From Mailhella sp. (GTDB taxonomy: Bacteria; Desulfobacterota; Desulfovibrionia; Desulfovibrionales; Desulfovibrionaceae), in assembly GCA_029258655.1 (NCBI GenBank), contig JARHYD010000129.1, positions 1-49,521 on the forward strand: 49,521 bases of DNA. Direction: 5' to 3'. Below, piece after piece: positions 1,801 to 38,946 of this stretch (positions within the stretch are counted from its first letter, which is position 1; each line of letters starts with the position of its first letter). A program made the translations under genes and the position numbers. The notes beneath the pieces were generated by a model that was not told the origin of the DNA, ran no database searches, and saw nothing but the letters and a program-made list of their open reading frames with translations.

Positions 1801-4296
1801 TTATAAGTCACCGTGTTCAGTACGAGCAATAAGGTCATCTTGAAGGTCTGGTGAAAGGTCAACGAAGTAAGCACTGTAACCAGCAATACGAACAATAAGG
1901 TTGCGGTATTTTGCAGGATCTTTCTTTGCTGCAATAAGGGTTTCACGGTTGATAACGTTGAATTGTACGTGCCAAATCTTGAGGTCGCAGAAAGTACGGA
2001 TAAAGGAAACAAGCTTTTCTGTACCTGATTCACCTTCAAGGCATTTTGGAGTAAATTTAATGTTGAGCATACGAGCTGCACGGTCACGCATACCATAGTT
2101 TTTGGTATTGTAGTTTGAAAGTAAAATTGCAGTTGGACCATTTACATCTGCACCGTGAGAAGCTGATGAACCGTCGGAAAGTGGGGTAAATTGCTTACGT
2201 CCGTTAGGTGTTGCTGATACAACTTTACCAAATGGAACGTGAGAGGTGAATGGAACATAACGAACATCATTATGCATACCAAGTTCTTTACTGTATTTGC
2301 CACCAAATTCAACTGAAATTTTATCAATTTCATGTCCAATAGCGTCAGCGTATGGATCGTTATTGCCATAACAAGGAGCAGAACGGAGCATTGCCTCTAC
2401 ATCTTCATAGCCTTCAAAGTTTGCATCAATAGCATCAATAATTTGTTGCATGGTAAGTTTTTTATCTTCAAAAACTAATTTTTTGATAGCAGAAAGTGAG
2501 TCTACAACTGTACCAAGTCCCATGTATTCAAAATAACCAAGATTAATGCCTTCTGGAATTTGTGGTTGGTGTAAGTCTATGCAATGTTTCATGCAAAGAT
2601 CATGCATTGCAGAACCCATTGGTTGTGCAAAGTGTTTAGCACGAAGATTGTTAATGGTGTATTGTTGAATAAAAGCTGCACGGAGGAAAAGAAGATGTTG
2701 TTTTACATAAGCGTCCCAGAATTGTTCCCAACTGGTAAATTTCGTTGGATCGCCAGTTTCAAGTCCAAGAACTTTATCTCCGTATTTTTTCATACGTCCA
2801 TTTCGTAAAACCATTTCAACTGCTGCTGCAAAGTTTACATAAGCACCACCAGAAGTATAAGTATCACGGTTTGGCATACGTGCTTCTGTACAACCTGATA
2901 CTGCATAATCATAGGCTTCTGCAAATGTTGCACCTTTAGAAACATAAAGAGGTACTACTTCTTCATCATTGATAAGTTTTGGGAAACCTGAACCATCTTT
3001 AATGGTTTCTGCTACGTCCCATAAATAACTTTCTGGAGCACAACTGTGTATACGTGCTGCAAGGTCAGGATAGTGCAATGGGAATTCACGTTTTGATTTC
3101 AAAATAAGGTGCGTTAAAGCATTGGTTGCATCGCGTCCATCTGGTGTTTGGCCTCCAACAGTTACAGCCTCCCAGTGAGCATAACCTTCATTGAATGCAC
3201 CACCTGTTGGGGAAATGTACATATCAATAAATTCTGCCATGCCTACCCACATACATTCAAGAAGTTCAATCGCTTTATCTTCATTGATTTTACCACTTGC
3301 CATATCTTGTTCATAATATGGGTAGAAATATTGATCCATACGACCATTTGAAATAGTTGTACCTGTTTTTTGTTCAATACGTGAGAACATTTGTGTAAAC
3401 CATTGGCTTTGGCAAGCTTCCCAGAAATCACGAGCAGGTTCGCCAGGTACGCGTTCTGCATTTTCTGCCATACGGATAAGTTCTGCTTTACGAACTGGAT
3501 CGGTTTCTGTTGCAGCCATTTCACGCGCTAATACAGCATGGCGTTTTGCCCAAAGAACAATAGCTTCTGATACTAAAATTACAGCTTCAAGGAATGGTTT
3601 CTTTTCGCAGTTATCTTTTGGAGAAAGTGGATCAAGAGCTGCTAATTTTTCTTGTGCTTCACGTTTAATATCATTGAAACCACGTTTTAAGATTTTTTCA
3701 TAATCATGCACCCATTGAATGGAAGAACGGAAAGATGCTGTTTCGTTTACAATAAAACGAGAAATAAGCCCTTGTGGATCATCGTAGGTAAGTTTATGCA
3801 CATCTTCAGGTAATGCAGCATTTAATGCTTCGTGGAATGTTTTACCTTTCCAGTAAGGTGCAATTTCTTCTACTACACGTTTTGCGTCTTCTGGAGTAAT
3901 GGTTGCAGGAGAAGTTGGTCTATTAGGTAATTCTTTTACTGCAATATCAAGAAAGTCACCGTCAAGTTCTGGATATAAAATTCCATAACGACCAGCATCT
4001 GTACCAGCACGACCGAGTAAAAGTTGATCATCTTGTACGTAAACAGTGATATTTTCTGCAATATGATATAATGCTTTTGCCCAACGAAGAACTAATGGTT
4101 GTCCTTCTGTTTGTTTCATGGATTGGGTAAAATATAAAGCGCGTTCAATATCAATTTGAGGTTTTTGTCCTTCAAAACGTTCAAGAATTTTGAATACACG
4201 TTCATGGGTTGCACGGAATCTATCAACCTTTCCGTCAATTTTATCATGGAGACGTTGTTCTTGAGGGGACATACATTCACATAGTAGTTGGGCCAT
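1801..4296 (-). CDS. islA: Isethionate sulfite-lyase (glycyl radical enzyme)
   Basis: This enzyme cleaves the C-S bond of isethionate (2-hydroxyethanesulfonate) to sulfite and acetaldehyde; sulfite then serves as electron acceptor in anaerobic respiration. The 831 residues are the expected length of IslA. Every active-site position I recall for Bilophila IslA is found one residue later here: Arg190, Gln194, Trp375, the thiyl Cys469 in SGCTEAR with Glu471, Arg679, Phe683, and the radical Gly806 in RIAGYSAYF. Choline lyase, glycerol dehydratase and pyruvate formate-lyase differ at these positions. The ATG at 4296 is preceded by a near-perfect AAGGAGGT. A sigma-54-like promoter lies about 110 bp upstream, with three dyad repeats further up. 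No sulfoacetaldehyde reductase, taurine transaminase or TRAP transporter is visible in the window, so isethionate is presumably imported by something encoded elsewhere or by the nearby NhaC-type carrier. Confidence 0.92.
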
Positions 4297-4405: not shown

Positions 4406-4423
4406 AAGCATATAGTATACCAA
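4406..4423 (-). promoter_or_regulatory. Sigma-54 promoter of islA
   Basis: On the minus strand the sequence reads TTGG-N10-GC (TTGGTATACTATATGCTT), the GG-N10-GC spacing diagnostic of RpoN promoters, with TTGG at -24 and TGCT at -12. It lies about 110 bp upstream of the islA start codon. A matching promoter faces the other way at 4963. Confidence 0.7.
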
Positions 4424-4506
4424 TCAATATATATTATTTTATATCAAATAGTTATATAGTTTTTTATGTATCATGTGTAAAAAATATCAAACTAAAAAAT
4501 AAAATG

Positions 4507-4524
4507 GTTGCAAAAATGCACCAT
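4507..4524. promoter_or_regulatory. Dyad repeat 1, candidate enhancer-binding-protein site
   Basis: The sequence GTTGCAAAAATGCACCAT has a TGCA-N4-TGCA core that extends to a TGGT...ACCA-like dyad. It is identical to the copy at 4559 and lies about 100 bp upstream of the islA sigma-54 promoter. Confidence 0.65.
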
Positions 4525-4558
4525 ATAAAGAAAATATGGGGTTAAGAGAAAAAATATA

Positions 4559-4576
4559 GTTGCAAAAATGCACCAT
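4559..4576. promoter_or_regulatory. Dyad repeat 2, candidate enhancer-binding-protein site
   Basis: Exact second copy of the 18-bp GTTGCAAAAATGCACCAT, starting 52 bp after the first. That is close to five helical turns, so both sites face the same side of the DNA. Confidence 0.65.
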
Positions 4577-4631
4577 TAAATACAATAAAAACTAATAATG
4601 CAGATTTTCACAAAGTATGTTTTTATTTAAT

Positions 4632-4649
4632 GTTGCAAATTTGCACTAT
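4632..4649. promoter_or_regulatory. Dyad repeat 3, candidate enhancer-binding-protein site
   Basis: The variant GTTGCAAATTTGCACTAT contains the perfect palindrome TGCAAATTTGCA. It starts 73 bp after repeat 2, about seven helical turns. It lies about 310 bp upstream of the rightward sigma-54 promoter. Confidence 0.6.
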
Positions 4650-4962
4650 ATTATTTTCTTGTTAAAAATGCGTTGTTTTTTAGTTTTTTATATAACTATT
4701 TAATTTTATAATATTTTATTATTTGTCAGGAGTTTTTATTGTTTTTTATTAAAGGTAACATAATGAATAAGAAAAAAATACATTAATTTATTGATGATAG
4801 TTTATGTTAAGATCTAATGGTATTATTGTGTCTGTTTTTTATATATATTAATGATGAGTAATCTTGATAGATAAATTTTATCTTTAAAATCAATATGTTA
4901 TACTAAGTAAATATATTTTCTTATTTAATTAATGTAATAAATAATTTTGTGAAAAAAATAGT

Positions 4963-4979
4963 TTGGCATATATCATGCA
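4963..4979 (+). promoter_or_regulatory. Sigma-54 promoter of the amidohydrolase gene
   Basis: TTTGGCATATATCATGCA has GG and GC separated by exactly 10 bases, close to the RpoN consensus TTGGCAC-N5-TTGCA. It is about 100 bp upstream of the ATG at 5080 and diverges from the islA promoter. Confidence 0.72.
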
Positions 4980-5079: not shown

Positions 5080-5916
5080 ATGAAAGTTATAGATTTTCGT
5101 TTTCGTCCAAATACACCAGAAATTATTAATGGTATTAAAAATAGTACTATGTTTAAAGCTGCTTGTAAGGCTATTGGGTTTGATGCTCGCAAGCCACAGC
5201 CATTAGAAGAAATAGTACAAAATCTTGATAGATTAGGGGTTGATATAGGTGTTATTACAGGGCGTGATGCAGAAACAACGTATGAATTTCCTGCAAATAA
5301 TGGTAGTGTTTTAGAATTTTGCAAAGCCTATCCAGAACGTTTTATTGGTTTTTGGGGTATTGATCCACATAAAAAAATGGCTGCTGTCTATGAAATTGTT
5401 AAAGCCGTGGAAGAATATGGCATGAAAGGTATTGCTATTGATCCATATCTTGCACATATTCCAGCTTGTGAGGCTCGTTTTTATCCTTTATATACAAAAT
5501 GCAGTGAATTAAATATTCCTGTTTTTATTACTATGGCTCCACCTCCACAGGTTTCTGGGGCTTTGATGGATTATTGTGATCCACGACAAGTAGACCAAGT
5601 CGCACGTGATTTTCCAGAGCTTACTTTAATAATGAGTCATGGTGGTTATCCTTTTGTTAATGAAGCAATTTACGCTTGTTTGCGAAATGCTAATGTTTAT
5701 ATGGATTTTTCCGAATATGAAAGAGCTCCTATGAAAGATGTTTTTGTAGAAGCAATGAAAGGTATTATTCAAGATAAAGTTGTTTTTGCTAGTGCTCATC
5801 CTTTTATTGAACTTGAAGATGCCTTGCAGGCGTATAAGGAATTTGATTTAAGTGATGAAGTACGTGAAAAAGTGATGTACGCTAACGCTGCTCGTATTCT
5901 AAAACTTGATAATTAG
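5080..5916 (+). CDS. Amidohydrolase-superfamily (amidohydrolase_2-like) protein with unusual metal site
   Basis: A 278-residue TIM-barrel protein of the amidohydrolase 2 type. The start is the ATG at 5080, placed after GAAGGAG; an in-frame TTG at 5065 lies before that ribosome site and is rejected. The N-terminal strand reads VIDFRFRPN, so the usual HxH metal ligands are replaced by RxR. The late-barrel motif is FASAHPF where the family normally has an Asp (GxDxPF). The MSHGG histidine is present. Some family members begin IDFRxRP, so this is a known variant rather than damage; it may be metal-free or use other ligands. It is driven by its own sigma-54 promoter divergent from islA, which ties it to the same signal. 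The substrate is unknown; a role on a sulfonate or a derived acid is inference. Its TAG stop codon lies inside the end of a repeat element. Confidence 0.75.
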   Translation: MKVIDFRFRPNTPEIINGIKNSTMFKAACKAIGFDARKPQPLEEIVQNLDRLGVDIGVITGRDAETTYEFPANNGSVLEFCKAYPERFIGFWGIDPHKKMAAVYEIVKAVEEYGMKGIAIDPYLAHIPACEARFYPLYTKCSELNIPVFITMAPPPQVSGALMDYCDPRQVDQVARDFPELTLIMSHGGYPFVNEAIYACLRNANVYMDFSEYERAPMKDVFVEAMKGIIQDKVVFASAHPFIELEDALQAYKEFDLSDEVREKVMYANAARILKLDN

Positions 5917-6090
5917 GGTGTGTTTCTAAATTCATTTTTTAGTTTTTTCTTTTGGGGGGAGACTGCCTTTATCCGTAACTTTCTGTGTTATAACGGCTAA
6001 AGTGAAATGATTTCCCCCAAATTTCCTCAATCAAGCAAATTTATTGAAATATGTTTCAATAAATTTGCCTATTTTAAGGTATTTGTAAAA
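5913..6090 (+). repeat. MITE-like dispersed repeat, copy B (left part)
   Basis: It begins TTAGGGTGTGTTTC, identical to the family end, and runs through the conserved core and the central TTTATTGAAA/TTTCAATAAA dyad. After about 6090 the similarity fades and no right end is found, so it is truncated. Its first bases overlap the stop codon of the amidohydrolase gene. Confidence 0.75.
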
Positions 6091-6313: not shown

Positions 6314-6325
6314 ATTGTCGACAAT
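6314..6325. promoter_or_regulatory. Palindromic operator-like site ATTGTCGACAAT
   Basis: A perfect 12-bp palindrome immediately downstream of the putative -10 of the antiporter gene, well placed for a repressor. The TTGT...ACAA form resembles sites of GntR-family regulators with an FCD domain, which is only a similarity. Confidence 0.4.
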
Positions 6326-6358
6326 CTTATTTAATAGCAAAGATATTGGAGCGTTATT

Positions 6359-7753
6359 ATGGAACAAAAGAAATCAGAAAACGAATTTTTACCTATGTAT
6401 GGTGGAATTTTTGGGGGTATGGTTCCGCTTGTTGTTCTTATTTTAGGCCTTGTTTGGCTTTCTGTTGCAGAAAGAGGAGGAACAAAACCATTTTGGGCTT
6501 GTGCATGGCTTGCAGTGGTTGCGGGGTTATTTTTTGCAAAAAATAAAACTGAATATTGCCAAGCAACAATGCGTGGTATTGGTAATGATACTGGAATTGT
6601 AATTGTTACAGCATGGTTATTTGCAGGTGTTTTTGGGAAATTAATGGCTGCTGGTGGGCTTGTTGACGGTTTATTATGGTTAGGTATGTCCACTGGAGCT
6701 AATGGTTCGATTTTTACTATTCTTGTTTTTATTATTGCAATGCTTTTTTCCTTAGGCACAGGTACTAGCACAGGAACTTGTATTTCACTTACTCCAGTTC
6801 TTTATCCTGCGGGTGTTTTTTTAGGTTGTGATCCTATTTTGTTGGGGACTGCAATTTTATCAGGTGCTGCTTTTGGTGATAATTTAGCTCCAATTTCTGA
6901 TACAACGATTGTTTCGGCTTATACGCAAGAGGCAGAAATGAAAGATGTTGTGCGTAGTCGTTTTCCTTTAGCAATGTCTGCTGCCCTTATTGCGGGGGTG
7001 ATTTTTCTTATTTTTGGTGGAGGAGGGGAAGTTCGTGTTGTTCCAGAAATGCATACCACTCTTGAGCCAAAAGGAATTTTCTTATTGTTTGCTGTTATAG
7101 TTGTGGTTGTTAGTGCTTTACTTGGTAGACATATTATAGAATCATTAATTTATGGTAATGTTACAGCAGCAATTATTTCTGTTGCTATTGGTACATTATC
7201 AATACAAGATATTTTTGGCATTCCAACAGAATCAGGTGGAAGTACTGGGATTATACAAGCAGGTATAGAAGGAGTTGTTGGGGCGATTATTTTTGCTATT
7301 CTCATTTTAGCAGTAACACAAATTCTTGTTGAATGTGGTATTTTAATTAAAATTTTAGATTTTGCTAATAAAAGTATCGTAGCTTCTGTACGACAAGCAG
7401 AACTTTTTATTATTGGTGTTACGGTTATTGCTTCTATTCCTATTTCGGCTAATGCTCCAGCAGAACTTTTAGTAGGACCATCATTAGTAAAACCTATTGG
7501 TGAAAAATTTGGCTTAGCCCCAGCTCGTAGAGCAAATTTAATGGATTGTGCTGTTTGTACTATTTTCTTTATTTTACCATGGCATATTGCTGTTGCAGTG
7601 TGGTATTCTGCGCTTGTTACAGCTTCTAATACGTATGGTTTAACTCCTCCACCTATTAGTGCAGCATTGATTAATCCTTATTCTTGGGCATTATTTGTGG
7701 TTATAATTTTTTCTGCCATTACTGGGTGGAATAGAAAAATGATTGCAAAGTAA
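6359..7753 (+). CDS. NhaC-family Na+/H+ antiporter-type transporter
   Basis: A 464-residue integral membrane protein with about ten or more hydrophobic segments. The family motif GDNLAPISDTT stands near residue 175, preceded by a glycine- and serine-rich segment (GTGTSTGTC). NhaC/ArsB-superfamily members exchange Na+ for H+, and several relatives exchange carboxylates (malate/lactate, for example). The start ATG is preceded by TTGGAG. It follows the amidohydrolase gene on the same strand after a 440-bp gap with a repeat element and its own promoter-like sequence, so it is not clearly cotranscribed. Its position in the sulfonate region makes substrate uptake possible, but this is inference from context; ion homeostasis is the default. 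Confidence 0.8.
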   Translation: MEQKKSENEFLPMYGGIFGGMVPLVVLILGLVWLSVAERGGTKPFWACAWLAVVAGLFFAKNKTEYCQATMRGIGNDTGIVIVTAWLFAGVFGKLMAAGGLVDGLLWLGMSTGANGSIFTILVFIIAMLFSLGTGTSTGTCISLTPVLYPAGVFLGCDPILLGTAILSGAAFGDNLAPISDTTIVSAYTQEAEMKDVVRSRFPLAMSAALIAGVIFLIFGGGGEVRVVPEMHTTLEPKGIFLLFAVIVVVVSALLGRHIIESLIYGNVTAAIISVAIGTLSIQDIFGIPTESGGSTGIIQAGIEGVVGAIIFAILILAVTQILVECGILIKILDFANKSIVASVRQAELFIIGVTVIASIPISANAPAELLVGPSLVKPIGEKFGLAPARRANLMDCAVCTIFFILPWHIAVAVWYSALVTASNTYGLTPPPISAALINPYSWALFVVIIFSAITGWNRKMIAK

Positions 7754-31710: not shown

Positions 31711-32898
31711 ATGCTAAATAATAACATTATAAAAAATTTACCCCCAAAAGAAATAAGATACTCCATAAGTGATGAAAGAGGACTATATCTTGAAATTATG
31801 CCTAATGGAAAAAAATCTTGGCGTTTTAGATATTCATTTCAAGGAAAGAAAAATAAACTTTCACTCGGTTCATATCCAGAGATAACCTTAAGCGACGCAA
31901 GAAAGAAACGTGATGAACTGCGAGTACTGCTTGCTAATGGTATAGACCCGCAGGAAAAACGGAGACAAGAAAAAGCTCTTACAGATGAAAAATACCATTT
32001 TGAAAATATAGCTCGTGAATGGCATAAAAAATTCAAATCTCGATGGACAGAAGGACACGCAGAATTAACTCTTACCCGCCTAGAAAAAAATATTTTTCCA
32101 TATCTTGGTAAAGTTCCTATTTCTGAAATTACTCCTCCAAAACTTTTAGAGGTATTACGTCTTATTGAAAAACGTGGAGCATTAGAAACAGCTAAACGTG
32201 TACGTGGTATTTGTTCTATGGTTTTTCGTTATGCTATTGCGTGTGGATTAGCAGAACGTGATTCAGCTCAAGATTTACAAGGAGCATTGACTCCTCCAAA
32301 AGGTAAACATTTAGCAAGTATAACTGACCCCAAAAAAGTAGGACAATTATTACGCGATTTAGCTAATTGCAAATCACATTTTTCTGTATACTGTGCTTTA
32401 CAATTAGCTCCATTAGTTTTTGTTCGTCCTGGAGAATTACGTCATGCAGAATGGGAAGAATTTAATTTTGAAGAAAAAATTTGGCGTATTCCAGCCCATA
32501 AAATGAAAATGCGTAGTACGCATTTAGTTCCTTTATCAAAACAAGCGATTAATATTCTATTAGAATTAAAACCTCTTACAGGTGAAGGGAAATATGTTTT
32601 TCCTTCTATTCGTTCTAAAACTATTCCTATGTCAGAAAATACATTAACAGTTGTATTGCGAAGACTTGGTTATTCAGGAGAAGAAATGACAGTTCATGGT
32701 TTTCGTTCTATGGCGTCTACTTTGTTAAATGAACTTGGTTGGAATAGGGACGCTATTGAAAGACAACTTGCCCACTGCGAACGTGATAGTGTACGTGCAG
32801 CATATAATTATGCAGAATTTTTGCCCGAACGCCGTCGTATGATGCAGGCTTGGGCTGATTATTTGGAGGAATTGAAAAATGATGTTGAAAAAGAATAA
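31711..32898 (+). CDS. int: P4-type tyrosine recombinase (island integrase)
   Basis: A 395-residue tyrosine recombinase with an N-terminal DUF4102 arm-binding domain (ISDERGLYLEIMPNGKKSWRFRY, LGSYPEITLSDARKKRDELR), a SAM-like core-binding region and the catalytic domain. Catalytic residues are visible as the first Arg in RPGELRHAEW (near 238), HGFRS, LAHCERD and the nucleophilic Tyr in AAYNYAEFLP near the end. It would integrate and excise the island at the tmRNA 3' end. AGGA precedes the ATG. It is adjacent to attL, transcribed away from ssrA. Confidence 0.95.
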   Translation: MLNNNIIKNLPPKEIRYSISDERGLYLEIMPNGKKSWRFRYSFQGKKNKLSLGSYPEITLSDARKKRDELRVLLANGIDPQEKRRQEKALTDEKYHFENIAREWHKKFKSRWTEGHAELTLTRLEKNIFPYLGKVPISEITPPKLLEVLRLIEKRGALETAKRVRGICSMVFRYAIACGLAERDSAQDLQGALTPPKGKHLASITDPKKVGQLLRDLANCKSHFSVYCALQLAPLVFVRPGELRHAEWEEFNFEEKIWRIPAHKMKMRSTHLVPLSKQAINILLELKPLTGEGKYVFPSIRSKTIPMSENTLTVVLRRLGYSGEEMTVHGFRSMASTLLNELGWNRDAIERQLAHCERDSVRAAYNYAEFLPERRRMMQAWADYLEELKNDVEKE

Positions 32899-33823
32899 AA
32901 TAATTACAAAGATAAAAGATATTATTAATTATATGAAATCTTTTGTGACACCTGATGATTATCCTATAAAACCAATAACTGTCAGAAGCAATAAATACTA
33001 TGCAAAACCTGAACAGCTTATTAGCTTGGAAGATTTATGTTTAACTATAAAATGTGACTGTGCTGAAGTATTATCAAATGCAATAAGGGCAAAAGAAATA
33101 ACGATGCTTTTTCACCATAAAATGATAGAAACAGCCAATGGAAAAAGAATGGTTATTTATACTTTTCCTCCTTATTTGGAAAATAAGCGTCAAGTCATAC
33201 TTGCCAGAAACAGATTGTATTTTGATAAACAAGAAGTTGCTTTCTGTTTGAAATTATTACCTTTATCAAAAGAGCTTATCAATATATTTGAAGTTCCTCC
33301 AGAAAGAACCGCAACAGAAGAGAATGTTCGGTTCATAATGAAAAAAGTCATTCAATGGGTTAATATTTCTAGAGGTCGTATAAAACCAACATGCAGTTTT
33401 GGCGATATTTTAGAACTTATACTTTTATTATTAGTTTCTTTGCCCATAACATTTATGCTGCGCTTATATGCTATTTTTACAACCCGCAATAAACCTTACC
33501 ATTGTTCGCAGATTGAAGGATATTCACCTCATCTGCCATTAAATTATTCGTTTGAGGAAGCTCGCCAATTATACGAAGAAAAATTTAAACATATTGATTA
33601 TAGAAAATATAATCTTAAAGAAAAGCAATTTAAAGACTTAGTAGCTTTTTATTTCGATATTTTTAATTTAAAAAATTATGAAATTGGCAAAATTCTTTAT
33701 GAAACACCTTCAAAGGATTTATCCCATGAAACATTTGAAAAATACGGTTATAGAAGCGTTATAAACGGCAGAGCTTTATATGAGGAAAACAAGGGAATTT
33801 TAAATATTTTGAAAAATTGTTAA
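32879..33823 (+). CDS. Island protein of unknown function with one hydrophobic segment
   Basis: A 314-residue protein not recognised. Its start overlaps the end of the integrase gene by 20 bp, with a GGAGG ribosome site inside int, so it is translationally linked. The middle contains a single strongly hydrophobic stretch (LELILLLLVSLPITFMLRLYAIF, residues about 180-202, quoted in two overlapping motifs: LELILLLLVS and PITFMLRLYAIF). The ends are charged and lysine-rich. A terminator follows. Confidence 0.6.
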   Translation: MMLKKNKIITKIKDIINYMKSFVTPDDYPIKPITVRSNKYYAKPEQLISLEDLCLTIKCDCAEVLSNAIRAKEITMLFHHKMIETANGKRMVIYTFPPYLENKRQVILARNRLYFDKQEVAFCLKLLPLSKELINIFEVPPERTATEENVRFIMKKVIQWVNISRGRIKPTCSFGDILELILLLLVSLPITFMLRLYAIFTTRNKPYHCSQIEGYSPHLPLNYSFEEARQLYEEKFKHIDYRKYNLKEKQFKDLVAFYFDIFNLKNYEIGKILYETPSKDLSHETFEKYGYRSVINGRALYEENKGILNILKNC

Positions 33824-33846
33824 CTTTTTTTGTTTTGTCTATTGAT

Positions 33847-33863
33847 TTGTCCAGTACGGACAA
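33847..33863. promoter_or_regulatory. Inverted repeat TTGTCC-AGTAC-GGACAA
   Basis: Perfect 6-bp arms shortly after the unknown gene and before the AlpA-like gene; an operator-like site, possibly for the AlpA-like protein. It shares the GTCC/GGAC motif with the site cluster before the integrase. Confidence 0.35.
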
Positions 33864-33872
33864 GTTTAGAAC

Positions 33873-33902
33873 AGTCCTAATAAATCCATTAGGACTATTT
33901 TT
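33873..33902 (+). terminator. Intrinsic terminator before the alpA-like gene
   Basis: AGTCCTAAT and ATTAGGACT form a 9-bp stem with a short loop, followed by ATTTTTTTAT. Confidence 0.8.
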
Positions 33903-33923
33903 TTATAAGGAGAAAACAGAAAC

Positions 33924-34160
33924 ATGAAACAACATAAAAATCAAAATTTAGAACTTCCCAAAGAAGGTTTTGTTCGTTTACCACAAATTTTGGCAGTGAT
34001 ACCTATTAGTAAAAGTCAGTTTTGGCTTGGAGTTAAAAATGGACATTATCCTAAACCTATAAAGCTAGGAGCAAAAACAACAGTATGGCGAGTAGAGGAT
34101 ATACGTTATTTAATAGCAAGGATTGGTCAATGTCTAGAAAAGGATAATAGTGAGGAATAA
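33924..34160 (+). CDS. AlpA-like DNA-binding protein
   Basis: A 78-residue winged-helix protein of the AlpA type: VRLPQILAVIPISKSQFW, GHYPKPIKLGAKTTVWRVEDIRYLIAR. AlpA proteins act as excisionase or activate integrase expression in P4-like islands. AAGGAG lies before the ATG. The following ATPase gene begins directly after its stop codon, so the two are coupled. Confidence 0.85.
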   Translation: MKQHKNQNLELPKEGFVRLPQILAVIPISKSQFWLGVKNGHYPKPIKLGAKTTVWRVEDIRYLIARIGQCLEKDNSEE

Positions 34161-34161
34161 T

Positions 34162-35142
34162 ATGCAAAATGCACTTATTTCTATGGACTTTGTACAGAAT
34201 AACCAAGAGCAGAAAGTTACTGTTGATAATATCATGCAACAACATCAAATATTAAATGAATTAATTATGGTGAATATGGCAGATTTTCTTTCTATGGATT
34301 TACCAGAACGAGGCTTTTTATTAGAACCAATAATTCCAACACAAGGCATAGTGATTTTATATGCTCCTAGAGGAATAGGCAAAACCTTTACAGCTTTAAG
34401 TATGTCGCTGGCAGTAGCAGGAGGGCTTTCATTGTATAATTGGCAGGCAAGTAAACCTAGCAAGGTATTATATGTTGATGGTGAAATGCCCGCAATTACA
34501 ATGCAAGAACGTTTAAAAGCTCTTGCTTGTGGAATGCAAGCACCTGAACTAGCAATGCAAAATTTTTCTTTAATAACTCCTGATATGCAAAATCGTTCTA
34601 TGCCAGACTTTGCAACAAGTGCAGGGCAACAGGCATTAGAACCCTTTTTGAAAAACATAAATTTATTGGTACTTGATAATATTTCTACTCTATGCCGAAC
34701 AGGTAAAGAAAATGAATCTCAATCTTGGCAACCTATGCAAACGTGGCTTCTTGATTTGCGAAGACGTGGCATTGCCGTTTTACTTGTTCATCATGCAGGT
34801 AAATCAGGCGATCAAAGGGGAACATCTGCTCGTGAAGATATTATGGATACGGTAATTAGTTTACGGCGTCCAAAAATTTATAATATGGCAGAAGGAGCAA
34901 GATTTCAAATACATCTTACCAAAGCTCGGAGCATAACAGGCAAAGACGCTCTTCCTTTTAAAGTACATTTAAAATCAGAAAATAATGTTTTGCAGTGGGA
35001 TATTTTTGAAATTCACGAAGCAGAACTTGAGCAATTAAAAAAGCTATTAAGCGAGGGCTATTCCCTTAGAGATTGTGCAGAAGAAATGGGCATATCAAAA
35101 AGTACAGTACATCGCTTAAAGAAAAAATTAGACATAGAATAA
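34162..35142 (+). CDS. RepA-like AAA ATPase with C-terminal helix-turn-helix
   Basis: A 326-residue RecA-fold ATPase of the RSF1010 RepA/AAA_25 type. Walker A is YAPRGIGKTFTAL (near residue 68), VLYVDGEMP carries the catalytic acid, Walker B is LLVLDNIS, and sensor VLLVHHAGKSGDQRGTSARED follows. The last 45 residues form a helix-turn-helix (YSLRDCAEEMGISKSTVHRL), so it probably also binds DNA. The ATG at 34162 with GAGG upstream is preferred over the in-frame GTG at 34150. It may act as a replicative helicase for the excised circle. Confidence 0.8.
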   Translation: MQNALISMDFVQNNQEQKVTVDNIMQQHQILNELIMVNMADFLSMDLPERGFLLEPIIPTQGIVILYAPRGIGKTFTALSMSLAVAGGLSLYNWQASKPSKVLYVDGEMPAITMQERLKALACGMQAPELAMQNFSLITPDMQNRSMPDFATSAGQQALEPFLKNINLLVLDNISTLCRTGKENESQSWQPMQTWLLDLRRRGIAVLLVHHAGKSGDQRGTSAREDIMDTVISLRRPKIYNMAEGARFQIHLTKARSITGKDALPFKVHLKSENNVLQWDIFEIHEAELEQLKKLLSEGYSLRDCAEEMGISKSTVHRLKKKLDIE

Positions 35143-35495
35143 TGCTAATTATTTTTATAAATTTTAGTCCCAGTGTCCCACACTGTTGCGTGGAATTTTG
35201 CTTGATTTTGAGTATTAGCTCATGTTGTCCCTTTGTCCCTTTACCTAGAATAGAGACAGTGGGACGAAAAAAAATTCTACAAAAGCAACTCTCTTTTTGG
35301 AGTTGTAAAAATACGTTTGGGCATTTTGCATTCTGTTTCTGATAAAACAGTAAACAAATTTTGTGAACATATTTTTATAGAAGCAAGCCATGTTTTCGCT
35401 TTACTCAAACTAGCTTGCTCTGCGAGGCTAAATTGTAAACTCCAAAGATTGAATATTGTAATTTTTTTTAACGTCTTTCAAGATGAGATTTTAGT
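35143..35495. other. Gene-free stretch before mobC, candidate oriT region
   Basis: About 350 bp without a convincing gene, upstream of the mobilisation genes where oriT usually lies. Inverted repeats seen: GTCCCACACTGT-like at about 35170 with ACAGTGGGAC near 35268, CAACTC-N7-GAGTTG at about 35286-35305, and AGCAAGC with GCTTGCT between about 35380 and 35420. No nick consensus could be identified. Confidence 0.4.
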
Positions 35496-35900
35496 ATGAA
35501 GATAAAAAAAGGAACAGGGCGTCCCTGTATAGAAAAAGAAAAACTCCGTTATAAAACAATAGGGGTTCGCGTAAACCAAAATGAATGGGACAATCTGCAA
35601 CAAAAGGCAGACTATTTAGGTATTTGTCCTGCAACACTTTTACGAGATTTTGCTCTCAAAAAAAGATTACCACCTCCACCAGTTCCTGAGCTAAATCGTA
35701 AATCTTATGCAAATCTAATGCATTTAGCGAGTAATATAAATCAATTAACACGTTCAATAAATCAAGGGCAAAAAACACTTTCTGTTCAATATATGGCACT
35801 TTTTAAAACTCTCTTGACAGAAATTTGCATAACGCAAGAGTTATTGCTTGGACTTTATAAAGCTGAAAAAGAGAATATAGAACAAAAGGAAGAAGAATGA
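35496..35900 (+). CDS. mobC: MobC-like mobilisation accessory protein
   Basis: A 134-residue protein: a basic N-terminus, KTIGVRVNQNEWDNLQQKADYLGICPATLLRDFAL resembling a ribbon-helix-helix DNA-binding domain, then ANLMHLASNINQLTRSIN, the characteristic MobC block. It would help load the relaxase on oriT. The stop codon overlaps the start of the relaxase gene (ATGA), so expression is coupled. Confidence 0.82.
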   Translation: MKIKKGTGRPCIEKEKLRYKTIGVRVNQNEWDNLQQKADYLGICPATLLRDFALKKRLPPPPVPELNRKSYANLMHLASNINQLTRSINQGQKTLSVQYMALFKTLLTEICITQELLLGLYKAEKENIEQKEEE

Positions 35901-36945
35901 TAGCCAAAACTATAAAAGGGAAAGGATTTCGAGGTGCAGTTGCGTATGATTTGCAAAAAGGGAAAAGTATTTTACTTAATACTAATATGTCGGCAAAGCA
36001 TAAAGCAAGTGTAAATGCTTTTGCTCAAGAATTTGGTATTGTTCGTTCTCTTCGCCCAAACCTAAAAAAAGCCGTTTGTCATGTTAGTATTAGTATACAC
36101 CCAAACGAAACATTAACAGATAATGAATGGTGCAAAGTTGCTCATACATGGCTAAATGATATGGGATTTACTAATAATCAATATATTATAAGTCGTCATA
36201 CAGACACAAAACACCCACATATACATATTCTTGTTAATCGTGTTGAGCTTGATGGTTCAGTAGTTAATGATTCTTATGATTATAAACGACAAGAAGTTAT
36301 TATGCGAAAACTCGAAAAAGAGTTTGGGCTTATTAATGTACAAAATAGTAAAGAAGTACAAAAAACTTCTCCTAAAAAAGGTGAATTAGAACAAGCAATC
36401 AGAAAACAAGAGCCATCAGTACGTATGTGCTCTTGCAAAATTGTATTGATAATATTTTACAACGCCCTATGCCCTTACAAGAATTTATTAATGAACTCCA
36501 TAAAAATAATATTGAAGTTAAACTCAATCAGGCAAGCACAGGCAAAATTAGTGGGATTAGTTTTTCTTTAAACGGTATTAATTTTAAAGGAAGTAAACTT
36601 GGAAAAAGTTTTACTTGGAATGCATTACAGAAAAAAGGATTATATTATGAAAATGGATATGTTACGGAACATGAACCAATCCGCCATGAATACAGCCAAG
36701 ACAAACGGACATCAGACAGTGCATACACCGCAACAAACAACACAACAGGCACAACAGCAAGTACAGCCGCTGAACGAACAGGAACTTTTGGAAATGCGTT
36801 TAGCTCTCCTCAATCAGCAGGAGAAAACAAAATTACAGAACAATCAAGAATTATTGAAAACTTTGCAAGACTTGAAAAAGAACTTTGTCGAGATAGACAA
36901 AGATCTCAAAAAACTTTCCAGCGAGATACAGGGCTTTCACGTTAA
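35897..36945 (+). pseudogene. MobA/VirD2-type relaxase, frameshifted
   Basis: The first frame (35897-36571) holds the catalytic part: KGFRGAVAYDLQKGK at the N-terminus, then the metal-binding three-histidine motif HTDTKHPHIHILVN near residue 100. After about 36424 the relaxase sequence continues in another frame (36427-36945: LLQNCIDNILQRPMPLQEFINELH...), which is the usual continuation of such relaxases. A single missing base at CGTATGTGC would explain this. As written, the protein ends in a 50-residue unrelated tail. It could be a real mutation, a sequencing error in a short homopolymer-free stretch, or, less likely, programmed slippage. The catalytic domain is intact. Confidence 0.8.
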
Positions 36946-37168
36946 AGCTTATAATAATTATAAAAGTTCTGTGCAAGTACCTTTTAATGCTGTATGTAAA
37001 ACAGCAGAAGAAACAAATAATCTTCTCCATATTGTTCAAGAAGAACATAAAAATATTTCTTCTTCGTGGTCGTACTCTATTTTCTTAACGTCATTTATAG
37101 CTAGTCTAAGTACAAGTATTTTATTATTTATTTTATATAATATCCTTCCGAAGCTTATAAATAATTAA
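36647..37168 (+). CDS. MbeB-like mobilisation protein nested out of frame in the relaxase 3' end
   Basis: The first 300 bp lie inside the relaxase C-terminal frame but are read in a different frame. I chose the ATG at 36647, preceded by AAAGGA; a longer version could start at 36599. About 173 residues: a Gln/Thr-rich segment, a coiled coil (about 60-130; LRLALLNQQEKTKL, TLQDLKKNFVEIDKDL) and a single C-terminal membrane helix (SIFLTSFIASLSTSILLFIL). This resembles MbeB/MobB genes nested in mobA of ColE1- and RSF1010-type plasmids, which anchor the relaxosome at the membrane. Confidence 0.65.
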   Translation: MKMDMLRNMNQSAMNTAKTNGHQTVHTPQQTTQQAQQQVQPLNEQELLEMRLALLNQQEKTKLQNNQELLKTLQDLKKNFVEIDKDLKKLSSEIQGFHVKAYNNYKSSVQVPFNAVCKTAEETNNLLHIVQEEHKNISSSWSYSIFLTSFIASLSTSILLFILYNILPKLINN

Positions 37169-37182
37169 ATGTAAACAATTTT

Positions 37183-37226
37183 CAATAACTAAAAAGTTAT
37201 TGACAAGCTAAAAAAGACATTTTATT
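37183..37226 (+). promoter_or_regulatory. Hairpin and promoter-like sequence before the toxin gene
   Basis: CAATAACT-AAAA-AGTTATTG is an inverted repeat; TTGACA at 37200 overlaps its right arm, with a weak -10 (TATTTT) 17 bp later. The arrangement suits autoregulation of a toxin-antitoxin operon. Confidence 0.4.
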
Positions 37227-37246
37227 TTTTCTTTATGGAGTAGCAA

Positions 37247-37615
37247 ATGGGAAAATATTCCATTTATTTTTATAAGGATAAAAATGGTAAAGAACCAGTT
37301 TTAGAGTATATAAAAGACCTTTTATCTAAAAAAGATAAAAATAATCGCATAAAAGCCACTAAAATTCAAGATTATATCAATATCTTAAGCGAACATGGCA
37401 CAATAGCTGGCGAACCATTTATAAAACATATTGACGGAGAAATTTGGGAACTTCGTCCCCAACGTGATAGAATTTTTTTTGTGGCATGGGTAAATGATAG
37501 TTTTGTTCTTTTACACTATTTTATGAAGAAAACACAAAAAACCCCTAGCAAAGAAATTGAGCAAGCAAAACGAGAACTCAAAGACTTGAAAGAACGGGGA
37601 TTAACCCAAGATTAA
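37247..37615 (+). CDS. HigB/RelE-type toxin (Gp49-like)
   Basis: A 122-residue RelE-superfamily protein with the blocks KEPVLEYIKDL, KHIDGEIWELRPQRDRIFFVAW, VLLHYFMKKTQKTP and EIEQAKRELKDL, typical of the phage-derived Gp49-like HigB family. It would cleave mRNA on the ribosome. GGAG lies before the ATG. The antitoxin follows 12 bp downstream, the toxin-first order characteristic of HigBA. Confidence 0.88.
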   Translation: MGKYSIYFYKDKNGKEPVLEYIKDLLSKKDKNNRIKATKIQDYINILSEHGTIAGEPFIKHIDGEIWELRPQRDRIFFVAWVNDSFVLLHYFMKKTQKTPSKEIEQAKRELKDLKERGLTQD

Positions 37616-37627
37616 CGAGGTAACATT

Positions 37628-37939
37628 ATGAAAACAATAAATAATTCCGCTCTTGGCAGTTCTTGGGAAGATGTTCAAAAAGAACTCTTTACCACCGAAG
37701 AAATACGAGAAAGTAATTTGCGAGTTGCCCTTATTAGCGAAATCATAAAAGCACGACAAGAACAAGGCATAAGCCAAAAGAAATTGGAAGAACTTAGCGG
37801 AGTAAAACAACCCGTCATTGCCCGCATGGAAACAGGACAAACCAGCCCCCAGCTTGATACAGTGCTAAAACTCCTTGCTCCGCTTGGCAAAACCCTTGCT
37901 ATTGTTCCGCTTGAAATCGCGGAAGCTGAAAAAATATAA
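37628..37939 (+). CDS. HigA-type antitoxin (XRE helix-turn-helix)
   Basis: A 103-residue protein. The helix-turn-helix at about residues 41-80 reads ISQKKLEELSGVKQPVIARMETGQTSPQLDTVLKLLAPLG. It partners the preceding toxin. GAGGT precedes the ATG. The family also represses its own operon. Confidence 0.88.
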   Translation: MKTINNSALGSSWEDVQKELFTTEEIRESNLRVALISEIIKARQEQGISQKKLEELSGVKQPVIARMETGQTSPQLDTVLKLLAPLGKTLAIVPLEIAEAEKI

Positions 37940-37984
37940 TATTACAATATAAGTATAGTATAAAAGAAGGAGTTTATATTCCCT

Positions 37985-38485
37985 TTAATTTTTATTTGTT
38001 ATTATGTGCATAAGTTCTTTTACTAGCATTGTAGAAGGATTATTACTTAGAGCATTTTCATCATTTTCATTTTTGAATTTTTCTTTAAATACATTTTTTA
38101 TTAATGAACAAATAATAGTTATTGGAGCTAAGCATAAAGCTAAAATAATTATAATAAGATAAGGAACATCTTTTATTAATTTATAAAAAGGTTTTGGTTC
38201 ATTTATTCCAGAATACCAGAACATTGCCAAAAAGACAATAAAACATAGGAATAAAATTACTATTAGCAATAACGAGATAAAAAAAAGAAGTTTTTTATGA
38301 AAAAGTTGCAATTTGAATTCTTCTCTTTCTAAGTCTATTGATTTTTCTTTCCATTTTTCTGGTACATTAATATAAGAAGAAGAATCTCGAGTTGCAAATT
38401 TACTTTCTGAAACTTTTTTCCCTGTTTTTAATTTATTTTTATTTATCTTAAATTTTGCTATGTGTAATTTTTTATTATTACTCAT
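37985..38485 (-). CDS. Membrane protein coupled to ImmA/IrrE
   Basis: A 166-residue protein with a lysine-rich cytoplasmic N-terminus and two hydrophobic segments (LLFFISLLLIVILFLCFIVFLAM, residues about 81-103, given as LLLIVILFLCFIVF; and YLIIIILALCLAPITIIC near 130). It is not recognised by family. Its start overlaps the end of the ImmA-like gene by four bases, so the two are translationally coupled and probably act together. Confidence 0.65.
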   Translation of the reverse strand: MSNNKKLHIAKFKINKNKLKTGKKVSESKFATRDSSSYINVPEKWKEKSIDLEREEFKLQLFHKKLLFFISLLLIVILFLCFIVFLAMFWYSGINEPKPFYKLIKDVPYLIIIILALCLAPITIICSLIKNVFKEKFKNENDENALSNNPSTMLVKELMHIITNKN

Positions 38486-38946
38486 AATAAATAACCTAAT
38501 CTTTTTAGACGTATCTCCAAGGCTTGATTAGAAACAGAAAATACTTCCGCCATTTCTTTTAAACTTATTTCTGTTTGTTTAATCATATAATTAATAGCTT
38601 CGATTGGCATAAGAAGTTCTGCCGCAAAAAGATTAGCTTCATATTCTTTAAATTGAAAATTTTTCCGATTATAACGAATTTTTGTTCTTGGGCTTGAACC
38701 ATGACCTAAAACAGCATGACCTATTTCATGTGCAATAGTAAAACGTTGTTTATTAATATTATCAAGCTCATTAATAAAGATAGTATTTGTTTTATCGTCA
38801 AAGGAACCACTTAATTCTAAATCAGATCCACCATAAATAACTTTTAAATCAAGTTGCTTAGCAATAGTAACAGGATTAACAGGTAGTAAACCATCCCAAT
38901 ATTGGAGCAAAATGTCTCTTGCCATTGCCTGTGGAGTCAAACTCAT
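38482..38946 (-). CDS. ImmA/IrrE-type zinc metallopeptidase
   Basis: A 154-residue protein with the zinc-binding IAHEIGHAVLG motif near residue 72 and the third ligand in FKEYEANLFAAELLMP, the ImmA/IrrE (DUF955) signature. Such peptidases cleave a repressor (ImmR, DdrO) to switch on mobile elements or stress genes. No XRE repressor stands directly beside it; the nearest is the HigA-type antitoxin. AAGGAGG precedes the start. Confidence 0.85.
   Translation of the reverse strand: MSLTPQAMARDILLQYWDGLLPVNPVTIAKQLDLKVIYGGSDLELSGSFDDKTNTIFINELDNINKQRFTIAHEIGHAVLGHGSSPRTKIRYNRKNFQFKEYEANLFAAELLMPIEAINYMIKQTEISLKEMAEVFSVSNQALEIRLKRLGYLL

Follow-up and report, generated by a model that had tools for sequence, protein, structure and literature searches.

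A probable divergent sigma-54 control region between islA and an amidohydrolase gene of Mailhella sp. and its candidate activator on a second contig

Production of H2S by gut bacteria is fed by the splitting of isethionate by a glycyl radical enzyme. How such a pathway is switched on is the question raised by a 49,521-nucleotide stretch of contig C116 of a Mailhella sp. genome (the window), in which the isethionate sulfite-lyase gene islA and an amidohydrolase gene diverge from a gap with sigma-54-like elements and repeated dyads. Our answer, drawn from sequence comparison and assigned a probability of about 0.87, is that positions 4407-4979 would constitute a divergent control region, dependent on RpoN, within a regulon for the use of isethionate, and would be activated via the dyads by an enhancer-binding protein (EBP) encoded on contig C87 of the same genome.

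While the initial annotation could not place regulation of islA by such an element in published work, a D. vulgaris counterpart, with DVU2827 acting on DVU2824 and DVU2820, had been predicted in 2015. That study (Kazakov et al. 2015; PMC4641369) predicted that the one-component EBP DVU2827 activates sigma-54 promoters at DVU2822-2825 and at the amidohydrolase gene DVU2820, through sites conserved in five Desulfovibrionales genomes; it named DVU2824 a pyruvate formate-lyase and filed the regulon under pyruvate metabolism. DVU_2824 corresponds to UniProt Q727N1 (PMC10920352), which was demonstrated to be an isethionate sulfo-lyase by Xing et al. 2019 (PMC6453916), so that the regulon was already predicted and its substrate can be reassigned to isethionate. 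A search of the open-access literature, with subscription papers outside its scope, found no work linking isethionate with sigma-54 or an EBP, or reassigning the DVU2827 regulon to isethionate.

The genes flanking the gap are the following.
1801-4296, minus strand: islA, isethionate sulfite-lyase (glycyl radical enzyme), from PDB matches and pocket residues
428-1375, minus strand: islB, radical-SAM activating enzyme, from NCBIfam/Pfam matches to radical SAM glycyl radical enzyme (GRE) activases
5080-5916, plus strand: amidohydrolase (Amidohydro_2) gene, from Pfam PF04909

The best PDB matches of the 1801-4296 product are the isethionate sulfite-lyases 7kq3 (1509 bits) and 5ymr (1500 bits), compared with 1214 bits for 6lon, which we take to be HpsG, its PDB title stating only the family. 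All six residues equivalent to the sulfonate contacts (Arg187/Gln191/Arg676) and the pocket (Ile190/Thr310/Phe680) of D. vulgaris IseG (DvIseG; PMC6453916) are present in the window IslA, offset by three, as R190/Q194/R679 and I193/T313/F683, with 6lon having Leu, Ala and Ile at the positions equivalent to the latter three. The best NCBIfam model is NF048011, sulfopropanediol dehydratase (HpsG), with 1553 bits at a cut-off of 1000; identity as HpsG is ruled out by the stronger matches to 7kq3 and 5ymr than to 6lon together with the three differing pocket residues. We think that NF048011 is an over-wide model, which, with such a score on an IslA, may misname IslA in annotations. Among named records, the best IslA matches are from Desulfomicrobium (90%). 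The order of islB after islA is found in most related loci, and no microcompartment gene was seen adjoining islA.

Membership of the NhaC-like gene 6359-7753 in an operon with the amidohydrolase gene is unsupported, as a 442-bp gap with an inverted repeat separates the two and no such dyad was seen there. The inverted repeat, GCAAATTTATTGAAA/TTTCAATAAATTTGC, is located 3' of the amidohydrolase gene at about 6034-6070 and a palindrome, ATTGTCGACAAT, ahead of the NhaC-like gene at about 6314-6330, which together suggest that the NhaC-like gene forms a unit of its own with different control. In the right half of the window, the region 31711-38946, with an integrase-type recombinase gene, then a RadB/RepA-like ATPase and farther on an IrrE-type peptidase gene, is probably an integrated element.

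Between islA and the amidohydrolase gene, the following elements are arranged from left to right.
4407-4423, minus strand: -24/-12 element for islA, TTGGTATACTATATGCT, from sequence; matrix rank 9 among window positions
4442-4454, plus strand: possible IHF site, exact consensus match TATCAAATAGTTA, between the islA promoter and the dyads
4507-4524, plus strand: predicted EBP site 1, GTTGCAAAAATGCACCAT; core 4509-4520, centre 93.5 bp from the islA -24 G
4559-4576, plus strand: predicted EBP site 2, 18-mer identical to GTTGCAAAAATGCACCAT; core 4561-4572, centre 145.5 bp from the islA -24 G and 52 bp from site 1
4632-4649, plus strand: predicted EBP site 3, variant GTTGCAAATTTGCACTAT; perfect TGCAAATTTGCA core 4634-4645, centre 218.5 bp from the islA -24 G
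4888-4900, plus strand: possible IHF site, exact consensus match AATCAATATGTTA, between the dyads and the amidohydrolase promoter
4963-4979, plus strand: -24/-12 element for the amidohydrolase gene, TTGGCATATATCATGCA, from sequence; matrix rank 2 among window positions

Sigma-54 promoters were recognised by TGGCA-N7-TGC with GG and GC invariant, and were ranked with a matrix built from the islA promoters of relatives and scored at every window position. The GG-N10-GC elements that had been pointed out as facing islA on the minus and the amidohydrolase gene on the plus strand are both in place, and a -24/-12 element precedes either gene, the one of islA being weaker due to GGT in place of GGC at -24. 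By its sequence alone the amidohydrolase promoter is already strong, and its element is among the 21 strict matches that the genome contains. As GG-N10-GC is weak alone and the islA element ranks only ninth, the case for the latter depends on where it lies and on its conservation. No sigma-54-like element in the window scores higher than TTGGCAAAACCCTTGCT (16.6 bits; 37882-37902, plus strand), which is found where ORF 37628-37939 ends, a long way from the islA region and with no dyads nearby.

The three dyads share the symmetric core TGCA-N4-TGCA. Against 0.01 copies expected from shuffles, the islA/amidohydrolase gap contains three; for the whole window three copies compare with 0.13 expected, no shuffle reached three, and outside the gap the 49,521 nucleotides hold no copy. 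Two identical 18-bp sites and a variant, with starts 52 and 73 bp apart, had been described, and these coordinates are exact. Their proposed helical phasing is partly supported by the spacings themselves: 52 and 73 bp amount to 4.95 and 6.95 turns, and neighbouring dyads 52-54 bp apart, frequent in relatives, recur in L095, L097, L105, L106, L108, L113, G017 and on contig C87, which backs this pair, but spacings of 67, 88-92, 113-125 and 141 bp are found too, several of them without whole turns. Taking about 80-250 bp upstream as the usual range of upstream activating sites at sigma-54 promoters, the centres at 93.5, 145.5 and 218.5 bp from the islA -24 are at activating distance, whereas the distance from the dyads to the amidohydrolase promoter, at least 325 bp, is beyond it. 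The two exact IHF-consensus matches in this gap (P about 0.02 by shuffling) are possible IHF sites; no such match occurs in the gap between the C87 EBP gene and dctP.

Conservation was addressed by a scan with an IslA alignment, which gave 80 loci with named organisms and 73 non-redundant islA upstream regions. In these regions k=4 is the only peak for TGCA-Nk-TGCA (44 copies; 0-6 at other k; shuffle mean 1.9) and k=7 the only one for TGGCA-Nk-TGC (50 copies; 0-3 at other k; shuffle mean 1.3), TGGCA-N7-TGC being present 5' of islA in 47 of the 73. These spacing controls together with the shuffles rule out that the dyads arose by chance. The strict dyad is absent from 46/73 regions, in some of them because the promoter sits before an upstream TRAP gene, while in others the site has perhaps diverged. 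5' of dctP the promoter is found in 20/22 and the dyad in 14/22 regions; 5' of islB the dyad is found in 0/58 and the promoter in 1/58, and 5' of dctQM both are absent from all 19 regions. In relatives, the centres of the proximal dyads gather between 91.5 and 94.5 bp from the -24 G, and the distance met most often corresponds to the 93.5 bp of the window. The search of relatives for the dyad near islA, suggested along with the initial annotation, thereby found dyad and promoter kept in front of islA or of the gene that opens the operon.

As a sigma-54 activator whose homologues co-occur with the dyad, the other item to be looked for, the following protein of the same genome stands out.
Contig C87, 7718-9124: EBP with PAS-AAA+-Fis domain architecture (N-terminal PAS)

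The genome encodes one RpoN (Sigma54_DBD, 207 bits, contig C19) and has 15 sigma-54 activator domain matches. The C87 EBP is 64-65% identical to the EBPs directly after islAB in G026, G046 and G058, and in a tree of 66 EBPs, from which DVU2827 itself was left out and in which L131, with the gene order described for the DVU2827 locus, was included, it is nested with starred support in the islA-linked clade, 12 other EBPs of its own genome falling apart from it. An orthologue of the islA-linked EBPs, as belongs to a DVU2827-type regulon, is present in the genome in this protein. The closest curated EBP model is the sigma-54 regulator PrdR (NCBIfam NF041552) with 418 bits, far under its cut-off of 795. 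The EBP gene is divergent from an operon for a TRAP transporter (DctP, fused DctQM) and a TauE family protein, and the gap towards dctP harbours three dyads (0.013 expected), of which two show the 52-bp spacing also seen in the window. In the same gap a strong -24/-12 element, TTGGCATAATTAATGCA, faces dctP. Genome-wide pattern searches gave 24 occurrences of TGCA-WWWW-TGCA and 21 of the strict element TTGGCAY-N5-WTGCW, against 1 for a reversed-pattern control, and only on C116 and C87 is a dyad close to a strict sigma-54 match. Lone dyad matches on C13 (inside rpoB), C110 and C166 and in G004, G005, G018 and G056 are probably due to chance, a convincing sigma-54 element being absent alongside.

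Among 59 related genomes, amidohydrolase homologues are found in exactly the 11 that have an islA-type gene; the EBP is found in nine of these 11, the remaining two being incomplete assemblies, and four genomes that lack islA have EBP homologues of 40-46% identity. The split of this genome is repeated in G024, with islA and a dyad on one contig and the EBP, the amidohydrolase gene and three dyads on another. In the N. liaohensis locus L131 a dyad is found between dctP and the amidohydrolase gene. Dyad, EBP and islA occur together, and the C87 EBP is judged the likely activator of the islA region. In five genomes of the same genus (G001-G005) the islA-type gene and the amidohydrolase gene are both absent, so that the regulon was either gained here or lost in the sisters. 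In Mailhella and relatives, the islA upstream sites of some loci (L138, L149, L150) read TATGCA-N4-TGCATA and the linked EBP of others (L137, L143, L144) is divergent (39-41% identity) and forms its own clade; altered sites and a divergent EBP in different loci of this group suggest that the site may have changed along with the regulator.

The same observations can be held against two other readings of the gap. The promoters might be of the sigma-70 type and the GG-N10-GC matches chance occurrences in AT-rich DNA, a view to which the weakness of GG-N10-GC alone, the many sigma-70-like sequences offered by AT-rich gaps and the merely ninth rank of the islA element lend themselves; the sharp N7 peak of TGGCA-TGC 5' of islA and dctP in relatives and the ratio of 21 strict genome matches to 1 in the reversed control nevertheless make it highly improbable. 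Hardly better placed, and still improbable, is the binding of the dyads by another dimeric regulator such as a repressor or a general nutrient regulator, with the EBP acting elsewhere. TGCA-N4-TGCA with AT-rich flanks is, as general knowledge has it, a plain palindrome bindable by several regulator families, but the dyads are found at upstream-activating distance from sigma-54 promoters with none overlapping them, three adjoin the EBP gene both here and in G024, they co-occur with EBP and islA, and the Mailhella-type loci with TATGCA-N4-TGCATA sites fall in the group with the divergent EBP.

For the preferred reading, activation of a divergent RpoN-dependent region by the C87 EBP, we infer dyad binding, sigma-54 transcription, ligand and IHF role as follows. 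The C87 EBP would bind the three TGCA-N4-TGCA dyads as upstream activating sequence and use its PAS domain to sense isethionate or a closely related compound. Looping of the DNA, in which IHF may assist, would then bring it to the sigma-54 RNA polymerase held at -24/-12, and the islAB and amidohydrolase promoters would be opened. Via the three C87 dyads it would also turn on the operon for the TRAP transporter and TauE-type exporter, so that with one EBP on both target sets uptake, desulfonation and export are proposed to be switched on together. Of the original proposal, an RpoN module with an unlinked EBP tied to isethionate, the architecture is borne out by motif conservation, promoter spacing and an islA-clade EBP elsewhere in the genome with dyads adjoining, while the inducer stays at the level of inference. 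In B. wadsworthia, a PAS-domain regulator gene adjoins islB in a cluster inducible by taurine and isethionate (PMC8667426). As a variant of the preferred reading rather than an alternative to it, the module could be unchanged and the EBP ligand be taurine, sulfoacetaldehyde, acetaldehyde or the amidohydrolase substrate, which is possible and clearly the less probable option. The amidohydrolase, without a known role in isethionate use yet in exactly the islA-bearing genomes, and the taurine induction of the B. wadsworthia cluster speak for such a ligand; the targets speak against it, one being an isethionate lyase and another a TRAP transporter. In D. piger, the binding protein of such a transporter takes isethionate at 0.5 uM but does not bind taurine (PMC6453916).

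Taken more broadly, we lean slightly towards the view that this EBP and the TGCA-N4-TGCA sites form a dedicated isethionate-sensing system of sulfidogens in at least two phyla (Thermodesulfobacteriota and Bacillota), with the sites kept even where regulator and targets are separated. When the regulon predicted in 2015 is combined with the enzyme identified in 2019, a named activator family, a predicted binding site and a target list result, and the joined evidence places an unexplained amidohydrolase in the isethionate pathway.

Among known systems, the iseG/iseH clusters and Bilophila islAB (PMC6453916, PMC8667426) equally comprise enzyme, activase and TRAP transporter, Bilophila having in addition the adjacent PAS-domain regulator, but here islAB and the transporter are on separate contigs; searches of both papers gave no sign of sigma-54 control. 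The closest likeness is the DVU2827 regulon of D. vulgaris Hildenborough, where a one-component sigma-54 EBP is equally predicted to act on a GRE operon and an amidohydrolase gene that both have sigma-54 promoters. In D. vulgaris, however, the EBP gene is part of a sigma-54 operon beside the GRE operon, whereas here it is found on the other contig beside the transporter. The islA region of Mailhella sp. is a further member of the predicted DVU2827-type regulon, in this genome split over two contigs, with the site described here as TGCA-N4-TGCA.
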